Shown: positions 3,795-13,853 of the stretch, piece by piece
Position numbering within the stretch: position 1 is the stretch's first letter
Layout of the letters: each line of letters begins with the position of its first letter
DNA from: Rudanella sp.
GTDB taxonomy: Bacteria; Bacteroidota; Bacteroidia; Cytophagales; Spirosomataceae
DNA length: 14,208 bases
Reading direction: 5' to 3'
Assembly: GCA_026785985.1 (NCBI GenBank)
Contig: JAJAYX010000616.1
Span: 1-14,208 of the forward strand
Notes under the pieces: model-generated
The model's input: only the letters and a program-made list of their open reading frames with translations
Told to the model about the DNA's origin: nothing
Database searches by the model: none
Made by a program: the position numbers and the translations under genes

Positions 3795-3858
3795 AGGGAG
3801 AAGGGATTAAGGGAAAGAGGATTTCGTAGGCGTACCTTTCCCTTAATTCCTTCTCCCT
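3795..3858 (-). repeat. Imperfect 23-bp inverted repeat between murG and murC
   Basis: The arms 3795-3817 and 3836-3858 are reverse complements at 22 of 23 positions, separated by 18 nt. The left arm region is pure purine/T and contains the unit AAGGGA three times, at 3794, 3801 and 3809, so the units are spaced 7 and 8 nt. The right arm overlaps the murG stop codon (3857-3859) and the left arm ends 6 nt before the murC ATG. The spacer RNA could fold into a long hairpin covering the murG end and the murC initiation region. There is no strong U-run after it, so a classical terminator is less likely. Confidence 0.8.
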
Positions 3859-4945
3859 ATTTTAGTTTCATAATCTCTTTCGCAATGTCGTTGGCTGCGT
3901 TTGGGCGGGCCAGCAATTTAATTTGTCTGGTCAGAATGGCTCGTTGATCGGCGTTGTTGAGCAGGGCCAAAGCTTCGCTCACAAGGGTCGTTCGGGCCTG
4001 GGAATCTTTCACCAGCAAGGCCGCGTTCCGATCCACCAGACTCATTGCGTTTTTGGTTTGATGATCTTCCGAAGCCGCCGGAAAGGGTACCAAAATTGCC
4101 GGGCGACCCACCAGGCACAATTCCGAAACCGACAAAGCACCCGCCCGCGACACTACTGCGTCGGCTACGGCATAGGCCCGATCCATCTCGTAAATGAAAT
4201 CATAGGGCTTAATAAAACTGGACCCGGTGGCCTGCACTGCCGTCCGTGCCCGTTCAATGAAAACCGGGCCTGTTTGCCAGATTACCTGTATGCCAGCCGC
4301 AACCAACTGAGCCAGCCCCTGCTCGATACATTCGTTGAGGGTTCTTGCTCCCTGACTCCCACCAATAACAAGCAACGTTGGCCTGTTAGCATCCAGACCA
4401 AATTGCTGATGACCTGCTTCCATCTGACTGTCAGCTTGTTGAATATCTTTCCGAACAGGATTACCCGTGATGATAATCTTTTCGGGGGCGAAAAAAGCCT
4501 CCATGCCAGGGTAGGCTACACAAACCCGTTTGGCCCAGCGAGCCAGCACTTTGTTGGTCAGACCCGCGTAGGAATTTTGCTCCTGAATAAGCGTCGGAAT
4601 ACCGGCTAAACTGGCCGCCAGGAGGGTTGGGCCGCTCGCATAACCACCCACGCCCACGGCAACGTCGGGCCGAAAGTCGCGTACCAGTTGACGAGCTCGC
4701 CATAGGCTTCGGCCCAGTTTAAGGGGGAAGACCAGGTTATCCAGCGTGAATTCGCGCTGGATCCCCACTACCGGCAAACCCTCGATACGATAGCCCGCAC
4801 GAGGGACTTTTTCCATTTCCATTTTGCCTTCGGCTCCCACAAACAGAATCTCCGTGCCTGGGTCAATGGTTTTCAGTTCGTTGGCAATGGCAATGGCGGG
4901 GTAAATATGCCCCCCCGTGCCGCCCCCGCTGATGATTATTCTCAT
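3857..4945 (-). CDS. murG: Lipid II synthase MurG (UDP-GlcNAc transferase)
   Basis: GT-B glycosyltransferase on the cytoplasmic face of the membrane; it adds GlcNAc from UDP-GlcNAc to lipid I to make lipid II. The 362-aa product shows the N-terminal glycine loop IISGGGTGGHIYPA (about 4-17), GVGGYASGP (98-106), the second G-loop IGGSQGARTLN (194-204), SRAGALSVSEL (266-276) and the donor-site region PFPAASEDHQTKNA (287-300). I chose the ATG at 4945, which puts the G-loop at the usual distance from the N-terminus and lies 4 nt after the ftsW stop. An upstream start at 4987 would add 14 residues and overlap ftsW. The stop codon sits inside the inverted repeat downstream. Confidence 0.97.
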   Translation of the reverse strand: MRIIISGGGTGGHIYPAIAIANELKTIDPGTEILFVGAEGKMEMEKVPRAGYRIEGLPVVGIQREFTLDNLVFPLKLGRSLWRARQLVRDFRPDVAVGVGGYASGPTLLAASLAGIPTLIQEQNSYAGLTNKVLARWAKRVCVAYPGMEAFFAPEKIIITGNPVRKDIQQADSQMEAGHQQFGLDANRPTLLVIGGSQGARTLNECIEQGLAQLVAAGIQVIWQTGPVFIERARTAVQATGSSFIKPYDFIYEMDRAYAVADAVVSRAGALSVSELCLVGRPAILVPFPAASEDHQTKNAMSLVDRNAALLVKDSQARTTLVSEALALLNNADQRAILTRQIKLLARPNAANDIAKEIMKLK

Positions 4946-4949
4946 GGCT

Positions 4950-6116
4950 CTACAATTTACTTTCATCAGCCTCATCCCGGCTGACACTCAACACGATACC
5001 GATGGCGATACCGGTGAACAACAGTGACGTTCCACCCATACTTAATAGGGGTAGTGGCAAGCCCGTTACCGGGGCCAACCCAACAGCTACAGCCATATTG
5101 ATAATAGCCTGTAAGACAACGCTGAAGGTTAGGCCCGCCGACAGCAATCCACCAAACGGTCGGGTACTTTTTCGGATGGCCCGCAGCCCCCGCGTCAGCA
5201 GCCAAAGGTAGGCCGCTACCACGGCAATGCCGCCAATCAGACCGTATTCCTCTACGATGATGGCAAAGATGAAGTCGGAATACGGGTGTGGCAGGAAGTT
5301 CCGTTGATGGCTTTGGCCCGGCCCCTGCCCGTAAATTCGCCCATTGGCCATAGCGATATAGCCCTGGTGTTGTTGGTAAACCAGCGGGTCGTCGGCATCT
5401 TTCAGGCGGCTCTCATCGGCCGTCCCCTGAAGCTGACTGATAAATATTTTCACCCGGTTGGTGGCCGTTCCGAGCCGTTGCCCCAACACCAGACCAATGC
5501 CGCCCAACACCACACATACCACCACCATGCCGGTCAGATAGCGCATTGGCACTCGCCCAATGTACATCAGCAGGAAACACGTGAGGCCCAATAGCAGGGC
5601 CGTGGAGGTATTCGACAGGATAATGAGGGCGCAGATTATCCCGATCCAGACAATCATGTTGGCCAACACGCGGGGTTCATAAACCACCCGTTGCCGTTTG
5701 GCGAGCATGGCCGCCAGATTCGAGATCAGGGCTAACTTGGCCAAATCGGAGGGTTGAAACGTCTGGTTGATCAGCGGAATCGTAACCCAACGCGAGGCCT
5801 CGTTGAAATTAGTGCCTTTGAAAAATGCCCACAGCAACAACGGTACCGATAGCCACATGCCAAACTTCGACAGACGGGCATAATACACGTAGTTGATCTT
5901 GTGGGCAAAGTACATACAGACCAAACCCAACAGCACCAGCATACCGTGCTTGAACAGGTAAGACTCCGTGTTGCCTTCCATTTTCTGGTAGGCCATTGTT
6001 CCGGTGGCACTATACACCACCAGTACACTCATGATGGACAAAAACAGCACCACCCACCAAATTTGGCGGTCGCCCTTGAGGTTGTCCCGGATCCAGCTAC
6101 TGATTGAAAAGGTCAT
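4950..6116 (-). CDS. ftsW: SEDS peptidoglycan glycosyltransferase FtsW
   Basis: Polytopic inner-membrane SEDS polymerase that makes septal glycan strands from lipid II together with the class B PBP FtsI. The 388-aa product has a roughly ten-helix hydrophobic profile, the SRWVTIPL and QPSDLAKLAL segments (about 108-130), the large periplasmic loop with GQGPGQS (263-269), then LPHPYSDFIFAIIVEEYG (275-292). Its Asp281 corresponds to the catalytic Asp of the SEDS family. Near the end is GLPLPLLSMGGTSLL. RodA is the alternative paralogue, but the position between murD and murG supports FtsW. Its ATG overlaps the murD stop by 4 nt (ATGA). Confidence 0.96.
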   Translation of the reverse strand: MTFSISSWIRDNLKGDRQIWWVVLFLSIMSVLVVYSATGTMAYQKMEGNTESYLFKHGMLVLLGLVCMYFAHKINYVYYARLSKFGMWLSVPLLLWAFFKGTNFNEASRWVTIPLINQTFQPSDLAKLALISNLAAMLAKRQRVVYEPRVLANMIVWIGIICALIILSNTSTALLLGLTCFLLMYIGRVPMRYLTGMVVVCVVLGGIGLVLGQRLGTATNRVKIFISQLQGTADESRLKDADDPLVYQQHQGYIAMANGRIYGQGPGQSHQRNFLPHPYSDFIFAIIVEEYGLIGGIAVVAAYLWLLTRGLRAIRKSTRPFGGLLSAGLTFSVVLQAIINMAVAVGLAPVTGLPLPLLSMGGTSLLFTGIAIGIVLSVSRDEADESKL

Positions 6117-7456
6117 TTTAGGTTTTTTATGGCATCCTTAAACTGTTCTCCCCGATCCTCGTAATTTCTGAACAGGTCGAAACTGGCGCAGGCGGGTGAG
6201 AGCAGAACCGTTTCGCCGGGGGTGGCCCAGTTGAGGCCCTTTTGCACGGCTTCGGTCACGCTTTGAGTCTCGAAAATCAGGGGAACCATGCCCGAAAAAT
6301 GGGATACTAGCGTTGCATTGTCTTTGCCGAGGCAGATCAACGCTTTCACTTTCTTTCCAACCAATTCATCTAACTGGCTGTACTCGTTGCCTTTGTCCTG
6401 CCCACCCGCAATCCAGACGGTTGGGGTTGTCATGCTGGCCAGTGCATAAAACACGGAGTCCACGTTGGTGGCTTTAGAATCGTTGATAAACGCGATTCCA
6501 TCGACCACGCCCGCCGGTTCGAGCCGGTGAGCCGCATTCTGAAACGTTCGTAATCCCTCGGCAATGTGTTCCGACGAGACTCCCACCGACTGAGCTGCCA
6601 ACACAGCCGCCAGCATATTGATGGCATTATGTGGGCCTTTCAGGGGTAAATCGGTAATGGGCAGGGTGAAACAGTCCTCGCCATTTTGGGCAGTAAGTTC
6701 ACCATTTAGGAAAAACCCACCGGGGCTGACTGGCTGCTCCAGCGAAATGGGCAACGCATTGGGAGCCAGCGAACGATTGGCTAACTTAGCTACAATTGCC
6801 GGACTTTCCTGAAAATAAATAAAGTCGTCGCCGGGCTGCATATTCTGCAAAATCCGAAACTTGGAGGCCACGTAGTTCTGAAACGAATAGCCATATCGGT
6901 CGAGATGGTCGGGGGTGATGTTGAGCAACACGGCTATGTTGAGCCGGGTGTCATACATCGTATCTAACTGGAAACTGCTGATTTCCAGCACAAACCAATC
7001 GAACGTGTCGTTGATTACCGCCTTGGCAAAGCTGTCGCCGATGTTTCCAGCCAGGCCAACCTTGAAACCAGCGGTTTTCAGGAGATGATAAATTAGGAGG
7101 GTTGTGGTGGTTTTGCCGTTGCTGCCCGTAATGCCAATCAGTTTGGCGGTGGTGTAGCGGGCAGCAAACTCAATCTCTGAAATGACGGGAATTTCCCGCG
7201 CTTTCAGGGCCTGAATCAGCGGTATGGTGTCGGGAATACCCGGACTTTTTACGACTAAATTAGCCTGTAAAATCCGGTCTTCGGTGTGGCTTCCTTCCTC
7301 AAAGTCAATGGAATGCTGGCGCAGTTCGTCACGGTATTTGTCCTTCAGGCCACCCCGATCCGACAAAAACACGTCGAATCCTTTGGCTTTTCCCAGCAGG
7401 GCTGCTCCAACACCACTTTCTCCGCCACCTAGAATAACTAATTTTTGCCCATCCAT
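6113..7456 (-). CDS. murD: UDP-N-acetylmuramoyl-L-alanine--D-glutamate ligase (MurD)
   Basis: Cytoplasmic Mur ligase that adds D-glutamate to UDP-MurNAc-L-Ala. The 447-aa product (from ATG 7456) starts MDGQKLVILGGGESGVGAA, the MurD N-terminal nucleotide loop. It continues with VVKSPGIP (68-75), the P-loop GITGSNGKTTTT (108-119), LAGNIG (135-140), LEISSFQL (157-164) and further on FINDSKATNVDSV, the ATP/Mg region of the C-terminal half. A TTG at 7474 could add six residues, but the ATG gives the standard MurD N-terminus. The start codon lies in the loop of a perfect 10-bp palindrome. It is the first dcw gene in the window; the gene upstream is mscL, not mraY, with a terminator in between, so murD may head its own transcript. 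Confidence 0.97.
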   Translation of the reverse strand: MDGQKLVILGGGESGVGAALLGKAKGFDVFLSDRGGLKDKYRDELRQHSIDFEEGSHTEDRILQANLVVKSPGIPDTIPLIQALKAREIPVISEIEFAARYTTAKLIGITGSNGKTTTTLLIYHLLKTAGFKVGLAGNIGDSFAKAVINDTFDWFVLEISSFQLDTMYDTRLNIAVLLNITPDHLDRYGYSFQNYVASKFRILQNMQPGDDFIYFQESPAIVAKLANRSLAPNALPISLEQPVSPGGFFLNGELTAQNGEDCFTLPITDLPLKGPHNAINMLAAVLAAQSVGVSSEHIAEGLRTFQNAAHRLEPAGVVDGIAFINDSKATNVDSVFYALASMTTPTVWIAGGQDKGNEYSQLDELVGKKVKALICLGKDNATLVSHFSGMVPLIFETQSVTEAVQKGLNWATPGETVLLSPACASFDLFRNYEDRGEQFKDAIKNLK

Positions 7457-7468
7457 GCGGGCAAAAAT
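7441..7468 (-). promoter_or_regulatory. Perfect 10-bp inverted repeat around the murD start codon
   Basis: Arms 7441-7450 and 7459-7468 are exact reverse complements (ATTTTTGCCC on the minus strand first), with an 8-nt loop that holds the murD ATG (7456-7454). In RNA the AUG would be presented in a hairpin loop and codons 3-6 would form the downstream arm. The palindrome is seen directly; a role in controlling murD translation is inference, and it depends on transcription starting far enough upstream. Confidence 0.5.
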
Positions 7469-7469
7469 A
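7462..7469 (-). promoter_or_regulatory. Possible -7 promoter element of murD
   Basis: TATTTTTG on the minus strand matches the Bacteroidota -7 consensus TAnnTTTG. It lies only 5 nt before the murD ATG, so a transcript from it would be leaderless or nearly so. No good TTTG box is found about 20 nt upstream, so this is weak. Confidence 0.3.
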
Positions 7470-7477
7470 AGCAAAAC

Positions 7478-7509
7478 AAAAAGCCCCGACCAGTTTGGCC
7501 GGGGCTTTT
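7478..7509 (-). terminator. Intrinsic terminator after mscL
   Basis: A 10-bp GC-rich stem (7479-7488 with 7500-7509) continues through an internal position that is A/C on the plus strand but a G-U pair in minus-strand RNA, then CCA/TGG closing a 3-nt loop. The minus-strand RNA runs into CUUUUUGUUUUG. It begins 20 nt after the mscL stop and separates mscL from the dcw genes. Confidence 0.85.
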
Positions 7510-7528
7510 GATTGGTATTTGGCGTAAA

Positions 7529-7861
7529 TTAGGCGAGAACCTCCTCCCTTCTTGAGATACGCATCCGGTTGGCGGCTTTCACAATCATGAAAATCACCCA
7601 GGCAACAATTAGAAACTGAACAATAGAGTTCAGAAAGTTACCGTACCGTATGGCCACTTCAGGGGCAGTACCGACCGCTTCTTTCAGAACAACTTTCAGT
7701 TGGGTGAGATCGACCCCGCCAAGGGCCAGTCCAACAACAGGATTAATAATATCCTCCACCAGCGAAGAGATGATTTTGCCAAAGGCAGCACCAATGAACA
7801 GACCAACGGCCAAATCCAAAACATTGCCTTGGGCAACGAACGTGCGAAATTCTTTTAACAT
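7529..7861 (-). CDS. mscL: Large-conductance mechanosensitive channel MscL, short C-terminus
   Basis: Inner-membrane pentameric channel that opens under high membrane tension to release solutes during hypo-osmotic shock. The 110-aa product begins MLKEFRTFVAQGNVLDLAVG. It has the first membrane helix at about 14-41 (FIGAAFGKIISSLVEDIINP, the pore-lining signature), a periplasmic loop, and the second helix at about 77-97 (IVQFLIVAWVIFMIVKAANR). After KAANRM only about ten residues remain (ending EEVLA), whereas E. coli MscL has 136 aa with a C-terminal helical bundle. The linker and bundle are therefore mostly missing. The channel core is intact, so it is probably functional. A terminator follows 20 nt downstream. 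Confidence 0.95.
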   Translation of the reverse strand: MLKEFRTFVAQGNVLDLAVGLFIGAAFGKIISSLVEDIINPVVGLALGGVDLTQLKVVLKEAVGTAPEVAIRYGNFLNSIVQFLIVAWVIFMIVKAANRMRISRREEVLA

Positions 7862-7902
7862 AGCAAAATAAGTTTAGGCAAGAGATGAGTTTGTAAGACG
7901 CT

Positions 7903-7933
7903 GAAAGCTAAGAATTGTCTCGAATTGAGCCAA
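7903..7933 (-). promoter_or_regulatory. Candidate mscL promoter
   Basis: On the minus strand, TTG at 7933-7931 lies 20 nt before TAGCTTTC at 7910-7903, which matches the Bacteroidota -7 consensus TAnnTTTG in all but the last base. A start near 7897 would give a leader of roughly 35 nt. The rest of the 113-bp gap between the DUF3078 gene and mscL shows no clear hairpin. Confidence 0.35.
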
Positions 7934-7974
7934 GCTTTTAACTATCTTTTCATACTGCTACGGAGCCAGCCAAA

Positions 7975-8922
7975 TTACTTCTTGCGGAAGGTTGTGGTGT
8001 TGTAGAGTAAGCCAATGGCCAATGTCTGTTGAAGTTGCCAATCTTGTGAGAAATCTTTGTCGAAAAGTGAAATCACGCCTAATGTAGTGCTAAGGTATTT
8101 ATTGATTTTAGCTGTGGCAATTAAGTCAATGCGATGATCAATCGCATCCAGCGTTTGGTAATTGGCAAACATCTGGTAGCGGGCGTTGATGTTGATGTTG
8201 TCTGTAACGTTTTTGTTCAAAGCCGCCTGCAATTGCAACGCCAGCCACTCCGTCCGAACGGTTTTGCCCGCTTCCACGCCAAAAGCCGTGGCCGTGCGGT
8301 CGGGCCGCGAAATGCCATCGGTTCCTTTCCGAACACGAACAATATCATCGTTCACGAATGTCAGGCGGGGAGCAAATGGGCTTACCCGTAACGAAAACCA
8401 ATCGTTTGGCCGGTAAGCAACTCCCCAGGCTGCCGTTAGCTGAGCGGGGGCAAAAAAGCCCGAAATCTGCTGACGGGTCGTGTTGGCCGGAATCTTGTCG
8501 TATTGATAGCCCGGAGCAAGAAACGTATTGAATGTTCCCGACATGAAAATGTCCCACTTCGGAGCGATTTTCTGACCCAAGACCGAGTTGATGAACAACT
8601 GATCAGCGGCTTTCCGGCTCGTGCCGCGCTGATTGATATAGCCCAACTGAAAATCACCCGTGTTGTCCCACGATGTTTTTCCTTTCTCATACAAGGCCCG
8701 TGAGGAGATAACCAGCCCTAATGCGGTAGAATTAACGCCACCCCCAACCCAGTTGCTAAATGAGGCCTGATTGATGTTAACCCCACCACTGAACGATTTT
8801 TGCCAGTAGGTTGTGTCGCGTTTGATCTTGAGGGTATCCTCAAAATTTTTTGTCGGCGTTTCCTGTGCCTGAGCAACTAAATAAGTGAGCCAAACAAGTA
8901 CGGTAAGCACTATTGTTTTCAT
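7975..8922 (-). CDS. DUF3078-type outer-membrane beta-barrel protein
   Basis: The 315-aa product begins with a signal peptide (MKTIVLTVLVWLTYLVAQAQ, likely cleaved near residue 20). The mature part is rich in alternating aromatic/polar strands typical of an outer-membrane barrel. The segment GGVNINQASFSNWVGGGVNS (46-65) and the following GKTSWDNTGDFQLGY (81-95) match the pattern I know from the DUF3078 family of Bacteroidota. No enzymatic motif is visible and the function is unknown. It is flanked by two mechanosensitive-channel genes, but spacing (113 bp to mscL, and a terminator between it and the MscS-like gene) suggests it is transcribed separately from the upstream unit. The family call is from memory of the motif, not from a search. 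Confidence 0.8.
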   Translation of the reverse strand: MKTIVLTVLVWLTYLVAQAQETPTKNFEDTLKIKRDTTYWQKSFSGGVNINQASFSNWVGGGVNSTALGLVISSRALYEKGKTSWDNTGDFQLGYINQRGTSRKAADQLFINSVLGQKIAPKWDIFMSGTFNTFLAPGYQYDKIPANTTRQQISGFFAPAQLTAAWGVAYRPNDWFSLRVSPFAPRLTFVNDDIVRVRKGTDGISRPDRTATAFGVEAGKTVRTEWLALQLQAALNKNVTDNININARYQMFANYQTLDAIDHRIDLIATAKINKYLSTTLGVISLFDKDFSQDWQLQQTLAIGLLYNTTTFRKK

Positions 8923-8943
8923 CTTTTACAGTAGTTAGTGTAA

Positions 8944-8973
8944 CAAAAAAAGACCCGCCATTGTGGCGGGTCT
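8944..8973 (-). terminator. Intrinsic terminator after the MscS-like gene
   Basis: A perfect 10-bp stem (8951-8960 with 8964-8973) closes a 3-nt loop. In minus-strand RNA it is AGACCCGCCA, CAA, TGGCGGGTCT, followed by a run of U (8951-8945). It starts 5 nt after the stop of the MscS-like gene. The clearest terminator in the window. Confidence 0.93.
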
Positions 8974-8978
8974 GAACG

Positions 8979-9803
8979 CTAAAAAACTTCAACCTTTCGG
9001 GATTGGAGAGTTTGCAGCGGGAATATGGTGGTTGTTACTCCCGTTTGCAGCGTAAGCGAGGTATTATCAATGCTGACTATTGCCCCTTTCACCTCGTCAA
9101 TTTGGATTACCTGACCCACTTTGTAGCGGTCTTTGGAGTAAAACGACGACAAAATATTGGCCATCACATCGCGTGAAGCAATTCCGTATCCCACGGCGAA
9201 GGCGAAAATAATGCCGCCAATGAGCAGGTTAAAACTCGATTCGAGGAGTTCGGTATTGATGCCCGCCTGCCCCAGCGCACTGATGATAGTGATGATCAGG
9301 AAAAAGAAAAATACGATAGATCCCAGCAGTTTTGCTGATGCAATCTTAAAGGTCTGACACAATGTTATAACGGCCCTTTTCAAGCCATCAGCCACCAATA
9401 TTCCTATTTGAAGCATGATGGCAGCCGCGATCAGTTTAGGAATAAAGTTAACCAGCGACAGCACCATGCCCGTTATGGCAGCTACGCCCAACGTTTCGGT
9501 GGCGGCTGTAATAAACACCAGCAAAATGAAGTAATACAGAACCTTAGAGACAATTTCGCTCAGTTTGATCTCCGTCTGTAGTTGCCTGATAAAGTCAATT
9601 TCGTTCAGTTTGGCCCCGATCTTGTCGAAGCCAACCTTTTTTAAAACACGGCCAACAATGGCCGCCACCGACTTGGCCACCAGGGTGCCAATGAGGAGAA
9701 TAACAACGGCTCCAACCAGCTTGGGTACAAAATCCACAAACTGATTGATAAGCGTTTGAAAGGTATTAATCAGGATTTCGACAATATTTGGCAAATTACT
9801 CAT
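8979..9803 (-). CDS. MscS-superfamily / CmpX-like membrane protein with TM-helix repeats
   Basis: A 274-aa integral membrane protein. Membrane segments are predicted at about 25-48, 83-103, 118-140, 160-180 and 192-212. Two of them sit in similar contexts (FVPKLVGAVVILLIGTLVAKSV at about 25-46 and FIPKLIAAAIMLQIGILVADGL at about 120-141), which fits the 'conserved TM helix' repeat of CmpX-like proteins. The last helix is followed by FAFAVGYGIASRDVMANILSSF and a small beta domain (about 217-274, including YKVGQVIQIDEVKGAIVSID) as in MscS. The usual IPN near the end of that domain appears as FPL. It probably acts in membrane-tension or osmotic homeostasis; channel activity is not certain for CmpX-type proteins. 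Its start overlaps the 61-aa gene upstream by 8 nt. Confidence 0.85.
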   Translation of the reverse strand: MSNLPNIVEILINTFQTLINQFVDFVPKLVGAVVILLIGTLVAKSVAAIVGRVLKKVGFDKIGAKLNEIDFIRQLQTEIKLSEIVSKVLYYFILLVFITAATETLGVAAITGMVLSLVNFIPKLIAAAIMLQIGILVADGLKRAVITLCQTFKIASAKLLGSIVFFFFLIITIISALGQAGINTELLESSFNLLIGGIIFAFAVGYGIASRDVMANILSSFYSKDRYKVGQVIQIDEVKGAIVSIDNTSLTLQTGVTTTIFPLQTLQSRKVEVF

Positions 9804-9981
9804 GGTCAGTCGGTGGGTTTACTGGTGATGCAAACAAAGAGGAAATTACACTCAAAAAGTCGCCAATATACAGTTCGGCAATCTGGAGACTATTTCTGAT
9901 TGAGTCGATTTCTGATACTAGTTCCTCCTGAATGTGTGGAGGGCAGAGGTCAGTGGGTTCGATGTCTTTAAAGTTCTCCAT
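9796..9981 (-). CDS. Small acidic protein of unknown function (61 aa)
   Basis: I do not recognise this protein. It begins MENFKDIEPTDLCPPHIQEE, is acidic and predicted helical in the middle (about 16-50), has one Cys in a CPPH motif (residue 13), and has no signal peptide or convincing membrane segment. It is likely real: it starts 13 nt after the sigma-factor stop and its own stop lies inside the start of the MscS-like gene (8-nt overlap CATGAGTAA region), the geometry of a translationally coupled operon gene. Sitting directly after an ECF sigma factor raises the possibility of a small cytoplasmic regulator or anti-sigma partner, but nothing in the sequence proves it. Confidence 0.65.
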   Translation of the reverse strand: MENFKDIEPTDLCPPHIQEELVSEIDSIRNSLQIAELYIGDFLSVISSLFASPVNPPTDHE

Positions 9982-9994
9982 AAGGTTGTGCTGG

Positions 9995-10594
9995 TTAAAA
10001 GCGCAATGGCCATTTCGTTATAATATATCTCAGAGCCAGCAGAAGCCACATGACAACACCCTCCAGATAGTATTTACGCAGTTTGTCTTTAGCTCGTTTA
10101 AGCCGCATTTTCACCGCGCTTTCCGTTACCTTCGTCATATCGGCGATATCCCGTATGCTAAAGTCATCCTGATATTTCATCATCAAAAGACTTTTCTCGT
10201 CGGCATTCAACTGCTCCAGCGCGTTCCGAAGCCCAACAGACTGCATTTCGGCAATTTCAGCATCGTTATTATCGCTGTAGTCGGGCACCCGGTCAATGTC
10301 TTCGGTTAAAAATTCATTGCTACGACGAGTGCGCGTGTGGTCGGTACAATAATTATAGGTAACTGAATAAAGCCAGGTCGCAAATTTTGCCTGCTCTTTG
10401 AACCCGCCCAACTTGATAATCAACTTCATAAAAATGTCGTGGGTAAAGTCTTCGGCACGGGCTGAGTCTTTAGTAAACGACAGGCACTTCCGATACACCT
10501 TATCACAATACCGTGTGTATAGTGCTTCAAAGTATTGGTTCCGCTGCGTATCAACGTAGAGACGCACCAGTTCCTCGTCAGTGTATTGTTTCAT
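9995..10594 (-). CDS. ECF-type RNA polymerase sigma factor with hydrophobic C-terminal tail
   Basis: A 199-aa sigma-70 family protein of the extracytoplasmic-function type, directing RNA polymerase to a specific promoter set. Region 2 covers about residues 20-90 (YTRYCDKVYRKCLSFTKD, AEDFTHDIFMKL, FATWLYSVTYNYCTDH). Region 4 covers about 128-176 and includes LNADEKSLLMMKYQDDFSIRD and the helix-turn-helix VTESAVKMRLKRAKDKL. After region 4 the protein continues with a hydrophobic tail of about 20 residues (VVMWLLLALRYIITKW), which is not a normal part of this family. It is the first gene of a unit with the 61-aa gene and the MscS-like gene, preceded by a strong promoter. Regulon and signal are unknown. 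Confidence 0.92.
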   Translation of the reverse strand: MKQYTDEELVRLYVDTQRNQYFEALYTRYCDKVYRKCLSFTKDSARAEDFTHDIFMKLIIKLGGFKEQAKFATWLYSVTYNYCTDHTRTRRSNEFLTEDIDRVPDYSDNNDAEIAEMQSVGLRNALEQLNADEKSLLMMKYQDDFSIRDIADMTKVTESAVKMRLKRAKDKLRKYYLEGVVMWLLLALRYIITKWPLRF

Positions 10595-10671
10595 GGGTAA
10601 GAGTTGCCCTGTAAGACCAGTAAAATATGGGAAAGTAACAGTTGACTAAAGAATAATTAACAGTAAAGCTC

Positions 10672-10703
10672 CAAATATACAGTCCTTGTCATACGAAAAC
10701 AAA
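10672..10703 (-). promoter_or_regulatory. Promoter of the sigma-factor operon
   Basis: On the minus strand, TTTG (10703-10700) is followed after exactly 20 nt by TATATTTG (10679-10672). This fits the Bacteroidota primary-sigma promoter (TTTG at -33, TAnnTTTG at -7). The start would be near 10667, giving a leader of about 70 nt. The -33 box touches the base of the tsf terminator stem. Confidence 0.75.
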
Positions 10704-10733
10704 GAAGCCCGACCAAGATTGGCCGGGCTTCTT
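10702..10733 (-). terminator. Intrinsic terminator of the rplM-rpsI-rpsB-tsf operon
   Basis: A 10-bp stem (10702-10711 with 10724-10733) continues through a G-U pair (minus-strand RNA) and CCA/TGG closing a 4-nt loop. The RNA then reads CUUCUUUGUUUUCG. It lies about 20 nt after the tsf stop. The core is nearly the same as in the terminator after mscL. Confidence 0.87.
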
Positions 10734-10754
10734 ATATATTTAACAAACAGTTAA

Positions 10755-11588
10755 TTAACCAATAGCAACCCGCTTAAAAGCTGAAATGGTCAATCCTTTT
10801 GATGTTTTTTCGAGGAGTTGAGCAATCGTCAACGAGTTATCTTTAACAAACTCCTGGTTCAGCAGGGTGTTGTCTTTGTAGAACTTGTTCAACTTACCCA
10901 GTGCGATTTTTTCAAGCATCGCTTCGGGCTTGCCTTCCTGACGGGCCTGCTCTTTACCAATTTCGATTTCGCGCTCCACAATAGTGGCATCAACGCCATC
11001 TTTGTCGAGGGCGACCGGCTTCATAGCGGCAACCTGCATGGCCACATCGCGGCCTACTTCGTTCACGTCGGTTTCGTTGGTATTGTTCATAGCTACCAGA
11101 ACGCCCAATTTGCCGTTCGAGTGGATATAAGACACCACCTTCTCGGCAGACACGTTCTCGTAAGAAATGACATCCACTTTCTCGCCAATTTTACCCATCA
11201 GATCGGTAATATGGTCCTGAAGTGAACGGCCATCGGCCTGACTTGTTGCCAGCAACGCTTCTTTGCTCTCCGCATTGGTCGAAACGGCCGTGCTGATAAT
11301 GGCCATAGCCAGATTCTGGAAATCAGGTACTTTAGAAACAGGCTCCGTTTCGCAGGCTAAGGCAATGATTTTACCATTGTTACCTTCAGAATTAACGTGT
11401 GCCAGTACTACACCCTCAGAAGTTGTATTGCCAGCCCGCTTGTCAGCGATTTTTTGACCCTGTTTGCGCAGAATTGCTTTAGCCTCATCAAAATTGCCAT
11501 CGGCCTCAGTCAAGGCTTTTTTGCAGTCCATCATGCCGGCTCCGGTCTCTTGCCGAAGTTTATTTACGTCTGCTGCCGTGATTGCCAT
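10755..11588 (-). CDS. tsf: Translation elongation factor Ts
   Basis: Guanine-nucleotide exchange factor that regenerates EF-Tu-GTP in the cytoplasm. The 277-aa product begins with the UBA-like domain MAITAADVNKLRQETGAGMM (1-20) and DCKKALTEADGNFDEAKAILRKQG (21-44). The EF-Tu contact signature is thus the family's TGAGMMDCKKAL. The dimerisation/core part includes GKIGEKVDVISYE and NEVGRDVAMQVAAMKPVAL. Length is close to E. coli EF-Ts (283 aa). It is the last gene of the ribosomal operon, 176 bp after rpsB, across a spacer holding three inverted repeats that may lower or tune its expression relative to S2. A terminator follows. Confidence 0.97.
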   Translation of the reverse strand: MAITAADVNKLRQETGAGMMDCKKALTEADGNFDEAKAILRKQGQKIADKRAGNTTSEGVVLAHVNSEGNNGKIIALACETEPVSKVPDFQNLAMAIISTAVSTNAESKEALLATSQADGRSLQDHITDLMGKIGEKVDVISYENVSAEKVVSYIHSNGKLGVLVAMNNTNETDVNEVGRDVAMQVAAMKPVALDKDGVDATIVEREIEIGKEQARQEGKPEAMLEKIALGKLNKFYKDNTLLNQEFVKDNSLTIAQLLEKTSKGLTISAFKRVAIG

Positions 11589-11627
11589 AAGAAATGTATG
11601 TAAGTTAAACGGTTGTCAAAAGAATGT

Positions 11628-11646
11628 ATGTCTGCCAATCAGACAT
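11628..11646. repeat. Short perfect inverted repeat in the rpsB-tsf spacer
   Basis: ATGTCTG (11628-11634) and CAGACAT (11640-11646) are exact reverse complements with a 5-nt loop. It lies 40 nt upstream of the tsf start. It could be a small RNA hairpin or an operator; nothing distinguishes these. Confidence 0.45.
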
Positions 11647-11657
11647 GAACTATAACG

Positions 11658-11690
11658 AAGTAGCCCATAGCGGCTGACTACGGGCTACTT
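11658..11690 (-). promoter_or_regulatory. 13-bp hairpin between rpsB and tsf (possible attenuator)
   Basis: Arms 11658-11670 and 11678-11690 pair over 13 bp with a 7-nt loop. The only non-complementary position is A/C on the plus strand but G-U in minus-strand RNA, so the structure is fully paired in the operon transcript. It is not followed by a U-run (CUUCGUUAUAG follows), which argues for a processing, stability or pausing element rather than a full terminator. Confidence 0.6.
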
Positions 11691-11695
11691 TGGTA

Positions 11696-11764
11696 AGTTG
11701 AAAGTTGTTAGTTAAGAGTTGCATTTCCGACAAGTTGGCCCCATCTAACGACTAGCTTTTAACT
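11696..11764. repeat. Inverted heptad-repeat element in the rpsB-tsf spacer
   Basis: From 11696 four consecutive 7-mers each begin AGTT (for example AGTTGAA, AGTTGTT), ending at 11723. On the opposite strand, reading from 11764 down to 11744, three 7-mers (the first AGTTAAA) form a diverged inverted arm, and the 20 nt between the arms are unrelated. The right arm ends exactly next to the rpsB stop codon (11765-11767). Confidence 0.7.
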
Positions 11765-12652
11765 CTATCCAGCTTCTTTAGCAGTGGCAACGGGTGCCGT
11801 AGCTTCAACTTCGGGGGCAGTTTCGGCCTCAGGCTCAGCAACCGCAACAGGAGCGGCAGCAGCTACGGGAGCCACATCAGCACCTTCGGCAGCGGCCTGA
11901 CGGCTATCGCTGGCACGTTTTGCTTCTTCTTCCTCCTGCAAACGCTGATCGTCTTTGTCCTGCTTCCGTTCCATCAGACCTTCTTCGATGGCCTTCCCGA
12001 TGGCAAGCGTAATCAGGGCAATCGACTTATACGCATCGTCGTTAGCCGGAATCGGGAAATCAACCACTTCGGGGTTCGAGTTCGTATCGCACATAGCAAA
12101 CACCGGAATACCGAGCCGCTTGGCTTCGGCAACCGCAATGTGCTCGCGCTTTACGTCCACGATAAACAGGGCGGCAGGCAGACGGGTAAGGTCAACGATA
12201 CCACCTAATACGCGGTCTAATTTTTCTTTGTCACGCGACATAGTCAATCGCTCACGCTTGGCAATGTTGCTCGACGTTGTTTCGTCTTTCAGCATTTTCT
12301 CCAGCGTCTGGAGTTTCTTCATCGACTTCCGCACGGTGGCAAAGTTGGTGAGCATTCCACCGAGCCAACGGTCGGTTACGTAAGGCATTTTCAGGCGACG
12401 GGCCTCTTCGGTCACGATTTCCTGAGCTTGCTTTTTCGTAGCGACGAACATCACTTTGCGGCCTGAGCGCACAATGCCTTTCATCGCTTCGGCGGCCTGA
12501 TCGAGGCTGGCGAGCGTTTTGTTCAAGTCGATAATATGGATGCCGTTTTTCTCCATGAAGATATACGGAGACATCCGGGGGTCCCACTTACGCGTAAGGT
12601 GGCCAAAATGCACACCAGCGTCGAGCAGGTCTTTATATTCGATTTGTGCCAT
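11765..12652 (-). CDS. rpsB: 30S ribosomal protein S2 with extended C-terminal tail
   Basis: Primary-assembly-late protein of the 30S subunit. The 295-aa product (from ATG 12652) opens MAQIEYKDLLDAGVHFGH, then RKWDPRMSPYIF, VTDRWLGGMLTNF (92-104) and LFIVDVKREHIAVAEAKRLG (162-181), all S2 hallmarks. An upstream start at 12694 would add 14 residues that are not part of S2; the MAQIEYKDLL start is the conserved one. Beyond the core (about residue 227) comes a charged, coiled-coil-like stretch (about 228-250) and then about 45 residues almost only of A, P, V, E, T. S2 tails vary in Bacteroidota, so this is likely genuine but low-complexity. The gene sits 154 bp after rpsI, across a spacer with a heptad element, and 176 bp before tsf. 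Confidence 0.97.
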   Translation of the reverse strand: MAQIEYKDLLDAGVHFGHLTRKWDPRMSPYIFMEKNGIHIIDLNKTLASLDQAAEAMKGIVRSGRKVMFVATKKQAQEIVTEEARRLKMPYVTDRWLGGMLTNFATVRKSMKKLQTLEKMLKDETTSSNIAKRERLTMSRDKEKLDRVLGGIVDLTRLPAALFIVDVKREHIAVAEAKRLGIPVFAMCDTNSNPEVVDFPIPANDDAYKSIALITLAIGKAIEEGLMERKQDKDDQRLQEEEEAKRASDSRQAAAEGADVAPVAAAAPVAVAEPEAETAPEVEATAPVATAKEAG

Positions 12653-12732
12653 TTTCGTTTTGAAAATATGGTTGTAATAAGTGATACGCAGCACCGCTCG
12701 TCGGCATCTTCTAAGAGCAGTCTGGACTTTGG

Positions 12733-12803
12733 CAGTGAACAGTGACAGTCCGGCAGCCAGCAGTAAATAATTTTAACCACTGATCGCTGATCGCTGATAA
12801 CTG
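12733..12803. repeat. Inverted heptad-repeat element in the rpsI-rpsB spacer
   Basis: From 12733 five consecutive 7-mers follow, four of which begin CAG (CAGTGAA, CAGTGAC and so on), to 12767. On the opposite strand, from 12803 down to 12776, four consecutive 7-mers all begin CAG and two are identical (CAGCGAT). The spacer between arms is 8 nt and A/T only. The right arm ends 3 nt from the rpsI stop codon (12807-12809). The remaining leader of rpsB (12653-12732) shows no strong structure. Confidence 0.75.
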
Positions 12804-12806
12804 AAA

Positions 12807-13193
12807 TTAACGCTTGCTGAACTGGAACCGCCGACGAGCTTTGGCACGACCGTATTTCTTACGTTCTACCATCCGCGAGTCGCGCGTCAGGAAGCCCTCT
12901 TTTTTCAGAGCAGGGCGGAACTCAGCATTCAGTTCAACTAAGGCGCGGGAGATAGCCATCCGCGTAGCTTCGGCCTGACCGGTAGTTCCACCGCCCCGAA
13001 CGTTCACTTTCACGTCGTAGCCACCGGTGCCATTGACTGAGGCAAAAGGCTGGTTCAGAATGATTTGCAGAATTTCAGACGGGAAGTACTGCTTGTACTC
13101 TTTCCCGTTCACCAGAATGTTTCCGGTACCGGCTGACAGATAGACGCGCGATACGGCGGTTTTCCGACGACCAATGGCATTGATACGATCCAT
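12807..13193 (-). CDS. rpsI: 30S ribosomal protein S9
   Basis: Protein of the 30S head whose C-terminal tail reaches the P-site tRNA. The 128-aa product begins [19 protein letters not shown], contains [23 protein letters not shown] (the S9 signature GGGxxGQAxAxRxGIxRAL with A for G) and ends [16 protein letters not shown], the conserved basic tail with the final SKR. Length is typical. It starts 3 nt after the rplM stop, so the two are certainly co-transcribed, as in most bacteria. Confidence 0.98.
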
Positions 13194-13196
13194 TTG

Positions 13197-13640
13197 TTAG
13201 AGAGTAATTGTGGTTGGTTGCTGGGCTGCGTGTGGATGCTGATCGCCAGCATAAACGTGCAGATTGCCGTAAATTCTCCGGCCCAGGCTGTTCTTAGGCA
13301 ACATGCCTTTGATGGCCATTTCCAGAATCCGCTGCGGATGTTTTTCGAGCAGAATCCGGGGGCTTGCGAAACGTTGTCCACCGGGATAACCCGTATGGCG
13401 TACATAGACCTTATCGGTCATTTTCTTACCAGTCAGACGCACTTTTTCAGCGTTGATGATGATTACGTTGTCGCCACAGTCAACGTGTGGCGTGAAGTTG
13501 GTCTTGTGTTTGCCGCGAATCATAAAGGCAATTTTACTGGCCAGCCGACCTAATATTTGCCCTTCTGCGTCAATCACAACCCAGTCCTTCTGTACCGTAT
13601 CACTGTTGGCAGAGATGGTTTTATAACTGAGCGTATTCAC
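13197..13640 (-). CDS. rplM: 50S ribosomal protein L13
   Basis: Early-assembly protein of the 50S subunit. I chose the GTG at 13640, giving 147 aa that start MNTLSYKTISANSDTVQKDW, the N-terminus usual for Bacteroidota L13. The open frame continues upstream to 13718 but the added residues are not L13-like. Signature parts are VVIDAEGQILGRLAS, TNFTPHVDCGDNVIIINAEKVRLTGKK and YVRHTGYPGG. It is the first gene of the operon with rpsI, rpsB and tsf. A promoter at 13716-13747 and a leader of about 70 nt with hairpins precede it, leaving room for autoregulation. Confidence 0.97.
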   Translation of the reverse strand: MNTLSYKTISANSDTVQKDWVVIDAEGQILGRLASKIAFMIRGKHKTNFTPHVDCGDNVIIINAEKVRLTGKKMTDKVYVRHTGYPGGQRFASPRILLEKHPQRILEMAIKGMLPKNSLGRRIYGNLHVYAGDQHPHAAQQPTTITL

Positions 13641-13676
13641 TGTTTGTATTGATAATTGGTTGATTACGAATGCGTT

Positions 13677-13716
13677 GTGCAAAAAAAGCACGCACCCCGC
13701 CTTAAAACGGGAGTGC
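13677..13716 (-). promoter_or_regulatory. Structured 5' leader of rplM
   Basis: In minus-strand RNA two small stems follow each other. The first is CCCG (13711-13708) with CGGG (13699-13696) around an 8-nt loop, extended at the DNA level by GCAC/GTGC. The second is GTGC (13691-13688) with GCAC (13680-13677) around a run of seven U. Terminator-like features in front of the first gene of a ribosomal operon suggest a ribosomal-protein leader. I recall that L13 leaders have been proposed for Bacteroidia, but I cannot confirm a match here. Confidence 0.45.
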
Positions 13717-13747
13717 AAATATAGGAGTTATGCCGCTGAAATACAAA
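13716..13747 (-). promoter_or_regulatory. Promoter of the rplM-rpsI-rpsB-tsf operon
   Basis: On the minus strand TTTG (13747-13744) precedes TATATTTG (13723-13716) by exactly 20 nt, the Bacteroidota -33/-7 arrangement. Transcription would start near 13711, about 70 nt before the GTG of rplM. Boxes and spacing are identical to those of the sigma-factor promoter. Confidence 0.8.
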
Positions 13748-13756
13748 GGGAAACGG

Positions 13757-13853
13757 GAAAAAAGGAAGGAGAGGAAAGTGGAAGGGGATGAAGCAATCAA
13801 ATGTATCTGGGTTTCTTCACCTTCGGCCCTTTCCTGCTTCCTCCCTTCTCCTT
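13757..13853. repeat. Purine-rich/pyrimidine-rich quasi-inverted element between rplM and the plus-strand gene
   Basis: 13757-13793 is almost pure purine with GGAAG-like units about 7 nt apart. 13815-13853 is almost pure pyrimidine and, read on the other strand, is a similar series of purine 7-mers (AAGGAGA, AGGGAGG first). The arms are only approximately complementary; about 20 nt separate them. The element lies between two divergent promoters and overlaps the plus-strand one. It resembles the murG-murC spacer in composition. Confidence 0.5.

Follow-up and report, generated by a model that had tools for sequence, protein, structure and literature searches.

Heptameric repeats and inverted heptad elements

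Heptanucleotide repeats of the STRR type were reportedly described in cyanobacteria by Mazel in 1990 and by Vioque in 1997. Repeats with a heptameric unit recur in cyanobacteria, Xanthomonas, Beggiatoaceae and Bacteroidetes (PMC4679880, PMC4692102), and no account of their origin is generally accepted. The present analysis concerns four intergenic elements built from inverted arms of 7-nucleotide (nt) units in a 14,208-nt stretch of DNA from Rudanella sp. (assembly GCA_026785985.1, contig JAJAYX010000616.1; hereafter the window) and their relatives in the family Spirosomataceae, which includes Spirosoma, Larkinella and Fibrella. These elements are probably quasi-palindromes, located mostly just after stop codons, that are continually remade by DNA replication errors.

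In Xanthomonas, Rehm et al. (2015; PMC4692102) described heptamer repeats of the unit GGGAATC, with 70 and 75 inverted-pair cases in two genomes. Four units are preferred, and the repeats are mostly intergenic, lie less than 50 bp from stop codons on the sense strand and are few between divergent genes. The elements studied here are alike in their 7-nt period, their proximity to stop codons and their rarity between divergent genes. That paper deals with a single G-rich unit type, read as a quadruplex, whereas the elements studied here have many unit types per genome, occur mostly as inverted pairs, include a subset with a conserved core and show centres that are inverted. Few paired heptad repeats are given for Nostoc in the same paper. 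The cyanobacterial STRR are 7-bp repeats able to make intergenic hairpins (PMC2670836), in line with the statement of an earlier note on this DNA that heptameric tandem repeats are known from cyanobacteria; they share these properties with the present elements but belong to another phylum, and neither a core nor an inverted centre is described for them in the available part of that paper. TAACTGA repeats occur in five Bacteroidetes, some with other heptamers nearby (MacGregor 2015; PMC4679880). They too are intergenic heptads, but they are direct and lie mostly upstream of start codons, with one inverted case in 170 sets in the main genome. REP palindromes (PMC3733652) are similarly short, extragenic and present in many copies; they fall into two superfamilies marked by a conserved tag, GTAG or CGTC, whereas no conserved arm sequence is found here.

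Template switching between inverted repeats leads to homogenisation of the arms and inversion of the spacer (PMC8604942), and template switching both makes and repairs hairpins (PMC8794818). Mirrored changes and spacer inversion of this kind are found in the Larkinella copies described below; these two papers, in their available parts, demonstrate the mutation on yeast genes and on RNA genes and do not describe a genome-wide class of elements with heptad arms. According to PMC4679880 and PMC4692102, Mrazek (2007) connected slippage by heptads with the footprint of the polymerase. A search of the open-access literature found neither a description of inverted heptad elements in Cytophagales nor a bacterial case in which such elements had many unit types, a core in common or a centre that is inverted. 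The earlier note's remark that it knew of no description from Cytophagales can thus be kept for that literature, with the qualification that inverted heptad pairs are known elsewhere (PMC4692102), as are cyanobacterial heptad hairpins (PMC2670836). The core, the flipping centre and the turnover in place appear to be new.

Inverted centres and mirrored changes in Larkinella

A subset of the elements carries the core TTGGCTGACGC-N-GCGTCAGCCAA between arms that are heptad-built, differ from one another and are often perfect. The core was searched by the loose pattern TTGGCTGACGC-N(2-28)-GCCAA, with palindromic copies counted on both strands. This pattern matched in 26 of 121 family genomes, some of them by chance. 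Forward matches reached 33 in a Fibrella genome (G010) and 15 in a Larkinella genome (G099); a reversed-pattern control gave at most 2 per genome and strand. Among 55 non-redundant copies with arms of at least 15 nt, arm length ranged from 15 to 49 nt, the arms varied by copy, and 14 copies had perfect 28/28 arms in a hand count. Some arms mirror sequence that is not heptad-built (L225, L228 and L230), as do those of a core copy from the window's own genome (L277), which match at 27/28. Three Fibrella-genus relatives match the perfect non-heptad copy L228 in the neighbouring gene only; because their spacer sequence is different, the direction of copying is unreadable. A second core, TTGCTTCGC-N6-GCAGCGCAA, with arms of several heptad types, was found in Fibrella forsythiae (G068); it is real but rare, with six copies in that genome, one in G041, none in six other genomes and none in the controls.

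Orthologous core copies were compared in four Larkinella genomes (G090, G099, G115 and G058), in which 18 pairs from 14 loci have a flank identity of 86-96%. These remained from 25 pairs after removal of five in which the same locus had been fetched twice, one that repeated another pair and L329/L268, a doubtful cross-genus match at 80%. At 7 of the 14 loci the centre is inverted between collinear flanks, and at the other seven it has the same orientation. Six of the inversions are strong (L314, L317, L319, L321, L322 and L344), with an identity of 0.87-1.0 to the reverse complement that was reached by 0 of 1000 shuffles, and one, L334/L339, is weak (0.60, p 0.002). Base pairs intact in at least one species numbered 347 (L316/L341 contributed no paired positions). 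While 322 of them were unchanged, 17 had a one-sided change, 2 a double change that breaks the pair and 6 a mirrored double change from one Watson-Crick pair to another, against about 0.1 expected; the six mirrored changes come from four independent loci, and as pairs within one locus overlap, event counts are partly dependent. Another 60 paired positions coincided with gaps, and at 14 both species had a mismatch. Gap lengths were multiples of 7 in 17 of 26 cases in the arms and in 0 of 3 in the flanks. By eye, the right arm of L335 opens with the mirror of 24 nt of the left arm, which is absent from L334. Inverted centres, mirrored changes and 7-nt gaps together are the mark that polymerase template switching, combined with slippage by heptads, would leave.

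Both orientations among orthologues at half of the loci could also be produced by a site-specific recombinase that acts on the TTGGCTGACGC arms and flips the centre as a micro-invertible switch. This is very improbable, because the flipped segment measures just 9-16 nt and the mirrored substitutions and 7-nt gaps lie outside the core; we know of no DNA invertase for which such a length would suffice for looping. An artefact of assembly or sequencing at hairpins has to be considered as well, since the four compared Larkinella genomes are drafts of many contigs, and short-read assemblers cannot orient a centre between perfect arms that exceed the k-mer. However, the perfect inverted repeats at the inverted loci measure 2-42 nt, which is short for k-mers of the usual size, and heptad runs are present in single-contig genomes too, such as Spirosoma G130, which makes an artefact hardly credible.

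Heptad periodicity across the family

Hairpin arms 18 nt or longer were collected at 19 loci of Spirosoma, Fibrisoma, Fibrella and the kin of the window (67 hairpins). Their identity at lag 7 had a z of 18 against shuffled arms; further peaks stood at lags 14 (z 9) and 21 (z 5), and lag 8 gave a smaller one (z 7.5). The same measure was z 0.9 in Dyadobacter (60 hairpins) and z 2.7 in Aquirufa (17 hairpins). Within 400 kb of a congener (G001), 62 intergenic lag-7 runs were counted, compared with 0, 3, 13, 7, 8 and 6 at lags 5, 6, 8, 9, 10 and 11, under a run threshold that changes with the lag, starting from 16 of 23 for lag 5 and ending with 12 of 17 for lag 11. An inverted partner, at most 150 nt away or inside the run, accompanies 54 of these 62 runs; the control for inverted partners excludes the 3-kb neighbourhood of the element. 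Spirosoma G130 yielded 30 lag-7 runs, 25 of them with an inverted partner, against 0-18 at other lags. Among the hairpins of G001, lag-7 periodicity was present in 30 of 72, compared with 2-6 at lags 4-6 and 9-13 and 13 at lag 8. The earlier note's proposed scan for 7-nt periodicity and inverted symmetry against shuffled sequence was therefore mostly positive, the exceptions being the hairpins of G130, which are taken up below, and the runs of Larkinella, where nine loci had 16 lag-7 runs, barely above 13 at lag 10.

The density of lag-7 runs per 10 kb of noncoding DNA was 33 in the genus Fibrella, 28 in Fibrisoma, 27 in the window kin, 17 in Arcicella/Flectobacillus and 16 in G001; lower values were obtained for mixed others (11), Spirosoma (10), Larkinella (10), G130 (7), Aquirufa (3.5) and Dyadobacter (2.9). 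Raw lag-10 runs were commoner than lag-7 runs in Dyadobacter (33 vs 11) and in Aquirufa (12 vs 8). The unit types are many, for example AAACTGT, AACAGTG, AATGTAT and AAATCGT, and there is no single shared G-rich GGGANTN unit. Two putative regularities of the arms were tried and dropped. G in the 5' arm with C in the 3' arm held for pooled Spirosoma loci and gave 11 vs 2 in G130 (p 0.02), but 19 vs 10 in G001 (p 0.14). A constant tetrad with a variable triad in each heptad gave a phase variance of 0.0318 vs a null of 0.0327, with contiguity in 71 of 230 vs 46 expected.

Turnover, gain and loss in orthologous spacers

The spacer that separates rpsI from the conserved stretch lying upstream of rpsB was compared in 42 genomes. 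It holds an insert of 62-110 nt in 37 of them and 8-30 nt in the other five (L148 is without the marker GTCCAG, and its first 100 nt were taken). Thirty-one of the 37 inserts are 7-periodic (p 0.05 or less) and 19 pass the hairpin test; by eye, their unit types include AGTTTAC, AATGTAT, TTGGGCA and CAGTTAT. Likeness between inserts was scored in the 45 closest genome pairs against the best of 100 shuffles. At a coding identity of 84.4% or less, 14 of 18 filled pairs did not rise above the shuffles (one of them a tie), and the exceptions were window/L111, L110/L111, L120/L126 and L112/L113. At 87.6% or more, 5 of 8 filled pairs exceeded the shuffles, and all misses involve L142.

The earlier note had also proposed that spacers of orthologous gene pairs be compared for gain or loss of whole elements, and both were encountered. 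Two Larkinella sequences (L138 and L140) are empty at the rpsI-rpsB site, whereas a third (L141) is filled at 96% coding identity and resembles L139, so that loss is the simpler reading for the two empty sites. A gain is indicated in G001, where an element of about 180 nt lies between stop and start codons, as the corresponding sites of its congeners are empty: G002 has TAAACAATG there, the stop and start overlap in G003, and G000 has a 19-nt spacer. Growth by whole units was seen by eye between G001 and G002 at L099:9112, where the left arm of one is 21 nt longer and its right arm is longer as well.

Position near genes and tests of RNA function

The position of heptad hairpins was analyzed in G001, G130, the window, L001 and L110-L148. 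The cut-off for a heptad hairpin, a lag-7 fraction of 0.45, 0.42 or 0.40, admits short perfect palindromes and an ordinary TAGCCCG hairpin; in a strict set, nine TAGCCC hairpins were reassigned to the other hairpins and 11 with arms shorter than 22 nt were dropped. The position and mismatch results of the looser set held in the strict set too. With spacer types that rest on longest-open-reading-frame (ORF), uncurated gene calls, strict heptad hairpins were found in 72 of the 712 spacers between codirectional genes, in 13 of the 130 convergent spacers and in 6 of the 146 divergent ones (88, 15 and 8 spacers in the looser set). Divergent spacers are thus depleted relative to all others (85 of 842; p 0.019), with 0 of 39 in G001; no divergent depletion was seen in G130 (2 of 60 divergent, 1 of 51 convergent). 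Codirectional heptad hairpins lie at a median of 5 nt after the stop and 27 nt before the next ORF, with 57 nearer the stop and 13 nearer the start. Within 15 nt of the upstream stop are 58 of the 72, compared with 61 of 158 other hairpins, which follow the stop at a median of 21 nt and are also nearer stops than starts (107 vs 48). The fourth window element, between divergent genes, is an exception to this trend.

Such a placement is what would be expected if the elements were selected RNA stem-loops at gene 3' ends, acting as terminators or mRNA stabilisers, whose sequence is free and whose structure is kept by compensatory substitution. In 27 of the 37 rpsI-rpsB inserts the RNA z does not exceed -2, so that folding is more stable than in shuffles, which points the same way. 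Selection on RNA pairing would favour G-U pairs, but sense-strand mismatches in heptad hairpins showed no such preference, with 138 G-T vs 154 A-C (p 0.38) and 123 vs 143 in the strict set (p 0.24); in the absence of a G-T excess over A-C, selection for RNA pairing was not detected. Other codirectional hairpins had a slight G-T excess of 165 vs 130 (p 0.048; strict, 175 vs 141, p 0.06), and as it is only slight, the mismatch test has a weak positive control. A U tract (5 or more T among the following 8 nt) followed just 4 of 61 strict heptad hairpins vs 28 of 145 others (7 of 76 in the looser set). Moreover, selection for pairing would not flip the centre, three congeners do without the element gained in G001, two Larkinella do without the insert of a third at 96% coding identity, and the depletion between divergent genes is missing from G130. 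Selected stem-loops are therefore an unlikely explanation of the class, and tolerance is a likelier reason for the place behind genes than a function that is required. The earlier note's second reading, selection for structure rather than sequence, remains unsupported by these mismatch counts. As a general caution, compensatory changes in hairpins alone do not prove RNA function.

Dispersed families

An AATG-type dispersed element (L099:3567-3677; L170-L188) has the ends TTAAGTGAATG and CTGACTACTTAA in many copies. Among the matches listed, 39 lie in G002 (40 of 279 candidates were scored), which gives the family the look of an ordinary dispersed element. Nineteen copies that were compared have the same ends and core, and their left arms, by eye, vary in length by heptad units. 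One TTAGACG-type copy sits between 13-nt direct repeats, and, by eye, a relative of this type is nested in the tip of a GAACAAC heptad element of G002. The AATG-type copies together with the direct repeat and the nesting imply that at least some heptad hairpins spread as elements. Extended to the whole class, this becomes the proposal that each heptad type is a family of non-autonomous mobile elements, similar to miniature inverted-repeat transposable elements or REP and moved by a transposase, with turnover as repeated insertion; the clean insertion in G001 would fit as well. The core copies argue otherwise. They have their centre in common, not their ends, and their outer arms differ; no conserved terminal inverted repeats were found across them, and target-site duplications around the 55 copies did not exceed chance, the lengths of direct repeats being those of the null. 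Inverted centres and mirrored changes would also be left unexplained, which makes mobility a quite unlikely account of the class.

The TCAGTACTGGACATT family, to which the copy between 13-nt direct repeats and the copy nested in the GAACAAC element belong, is represented by L293 and L294 in G002 and by L095:10389-10545 with its G002 orthologue in L283. A dispersed palindrome with ACAGGATTACAGGATG units occupies L103:1832-1980 in G001, with other sequence in G002, and both ends of L103:4285-5110 are 98-100% identical to the ends of many G002 contigs, a pattern expected of an insertion sequence.

A model of repeated remaking

The reading that replication errors continually remake the elements can be arranged in steps. 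A heptad array with an inverted partner would arise in a short spacer, as a single locus suggests. Slippage would then add or remove 7-nt units, which is consistent with the whole-unit gaps between orthologues. The arms would allow a template switch within the hairpin, by which one arm may be copied onto the other, substitutions carried over and the centre flipped; products of this kind are seen in relatives. Slippage and template switching would together keep the mirrored-heptad design while the letters change, so that orthologous spacers would have the same architecture and largely unrelated sequence. In the core-bearing subset, the conserved palindromic core would form the tip and may serve as the fold-back point. 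For the four window elements the same process is presumed from their kin, and some elements may secondarily serve as mRNA 3'-end stem-loops. Near-relatives preserve single steps, namely unit gain and loss, arm copying, centre inversion and whole-element gain, so that direct tests become possible of how such repeats originate and of how often templates are switched in wild bacteria.

Several observations weigh against this reading. Template switching alone gives no reason for a unit of 7 nt. None of the four window elements has the TTGGCTGACGC core, and the decisive loci are all Larkinella core copies. The 105 hairpins of G130 show no lag-7 excess (13, against 12, 13 and 10 at lags 4, 8 and 12). 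Eighteen of the 37 rpsI-rpsB inserts fail the hairpin test at 0.05, and the low RNA z of many inserts would be predicted likewise by selection for structure. In the expanded AATG element of G002 at L099:9112, variable arm bases are, by eye, not mirrored. The look of the AATG-type family and the direct repeats around the TTAGACG-type copy have to be added to this list.

As one of its two readings, the earlier note had suggested that a process generates the elements, either template switching or slippage with a subsequent inversion. This process is well supported in relatives by the inverted centres, the mirrored substitutions, the arm gaps in steps of 7 and the mirroring of non-heptad sequence; with selection for structure unsupported, the interpretation given there is partly supported overall. 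A more far-reaching proposal, which is put forward tentatively and is rather doubtful, is that the identity of an element lies in its shape. The core would fold the nascent strand back and print the mirror of the adjoining sequence, with heptad slippage supplying the arms, and the element would persist, flip and be replaced in place without a conserved arm sequence, perhaps without a protein of its own.

The four elements of the window

The window elements were tested against 1000 dinucleotide shuffles, as whole elements and arm by arm; arm coordinates are given without strand. Element 1 (3795-3858) lies in the murG-murC spacer, with AGGGAGA/AAGGGAT-like units in the left arm (3795..3823) and an inverted right arm at 3830..3858. 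Its hairpin score of 32 was reached by 0 of 1000 shuffles and its RNA z is -5.6; lag-7 periodicity gave p 0.003 for the whole element and 0.09-0.11 for the arms alone. Element 2 (11696-11764), in the rpsB-tsf spacer, has AGTTGAA/AGTTGTT units in the left arm (11696..11722) and a degenerate inverted right arm (11738..11764). It is periodic at lag 7 as a whole (p 0.006) and in its arms (p 0.001 or less). Its hairpin score is not significant (p 0.62, RNA z +1.0), and the 7-mer similarity of the left arm to the inverted right arm gave p 0.018.

Element 3 (12733-12803) is situated in the rpsI-rpsB spacer, with CAGTGAA-like units in the left arm (12731..12765) and CGCTGAT units in inverted orientation in the right arm (12774..12805). 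The lag-7 signal is clear (p <0.001), and inverted pairing is not significant by the hairpin test (p 0.28), by 7-mers (p 0.36) or by RNA z (-0.4). Element 4 (13757-13853) occupies the divergent spacer between rplM and an enoyl-CoA-hydratase-like gene, with GGAAGGA-like units in the left arm (13757..13796) and an inverted right arm at 13818..13853. Its lag-7 p is <0.001 for the whole element and 0.05 to 0.44 for the arms under two arm definitions; the hairpin test gave p 0.034, the 7-mer test p 0.17, and RNA z is -1.5 on the plus strand and -2.0 on the minus strand.

Phasing at 7 nt thus holds in all four elements and is best in elements 2 and 3, while pairing of the arms beyond chance is strong in element 1, weak in elements 4 and 2 and unproven in element 3. 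The earlier note had described one design shared by four spacers, inverted heptad arms around unrelated centres. The periodicity of this design was recovered in every spacer, its pairing to the unequal degree just given; the centres are unrelated in the window's four, but a subset in relatives has a conserved centre and variable arms. The observation as a whole is partly confirmed. A fifth candidate in the window, at 7876-7966, failed all shuffle tests.

Genes and genome context

The window belongs to a 4.68-Mb draft genome of 891 contigs, and its genus is represented by three other genomes. Its minus strand encodes ftsA, murC, murG, an FtsW/RodA-type protein, murD, mscL, tsf, rpsB, rpsI and rplM, as well as FtsQ-like, DUF3078, mechanosensitive-channel and sigma-70-type proteins; the FtsQ match lies under the curated cut-off and the FtsW match under its own cut-off. 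The enoyl-CoA-hydratase-like gene on the plus strand starts at about 13891.

No RNA family of Rfam matched in the window at gathering score, including the stretch at 12687-12727 upstream of rpsB (sense GTCCAGACTGCTCTTAG..GGTGCTGCG), which is conserved while the adjoining spacer turns over. The marker GTCCAG is present in 41 of 42 rpsI-rpsB spacers. This stretch is a candidate S2 leader RNA. A conserved hairpin at 11660-11689 in the rpsB-tsf spacer (sense TAGCCCGTAG..CTATGGGCTA) adjoins the heptad element there and is present in the relatives compared. One of the sequences used, L001, is labelled Flavobacterium sp. SUN052 and clusters with the kin of the window; its S2 is 95% identical and its spacers are similar, so that the label looks wrong.

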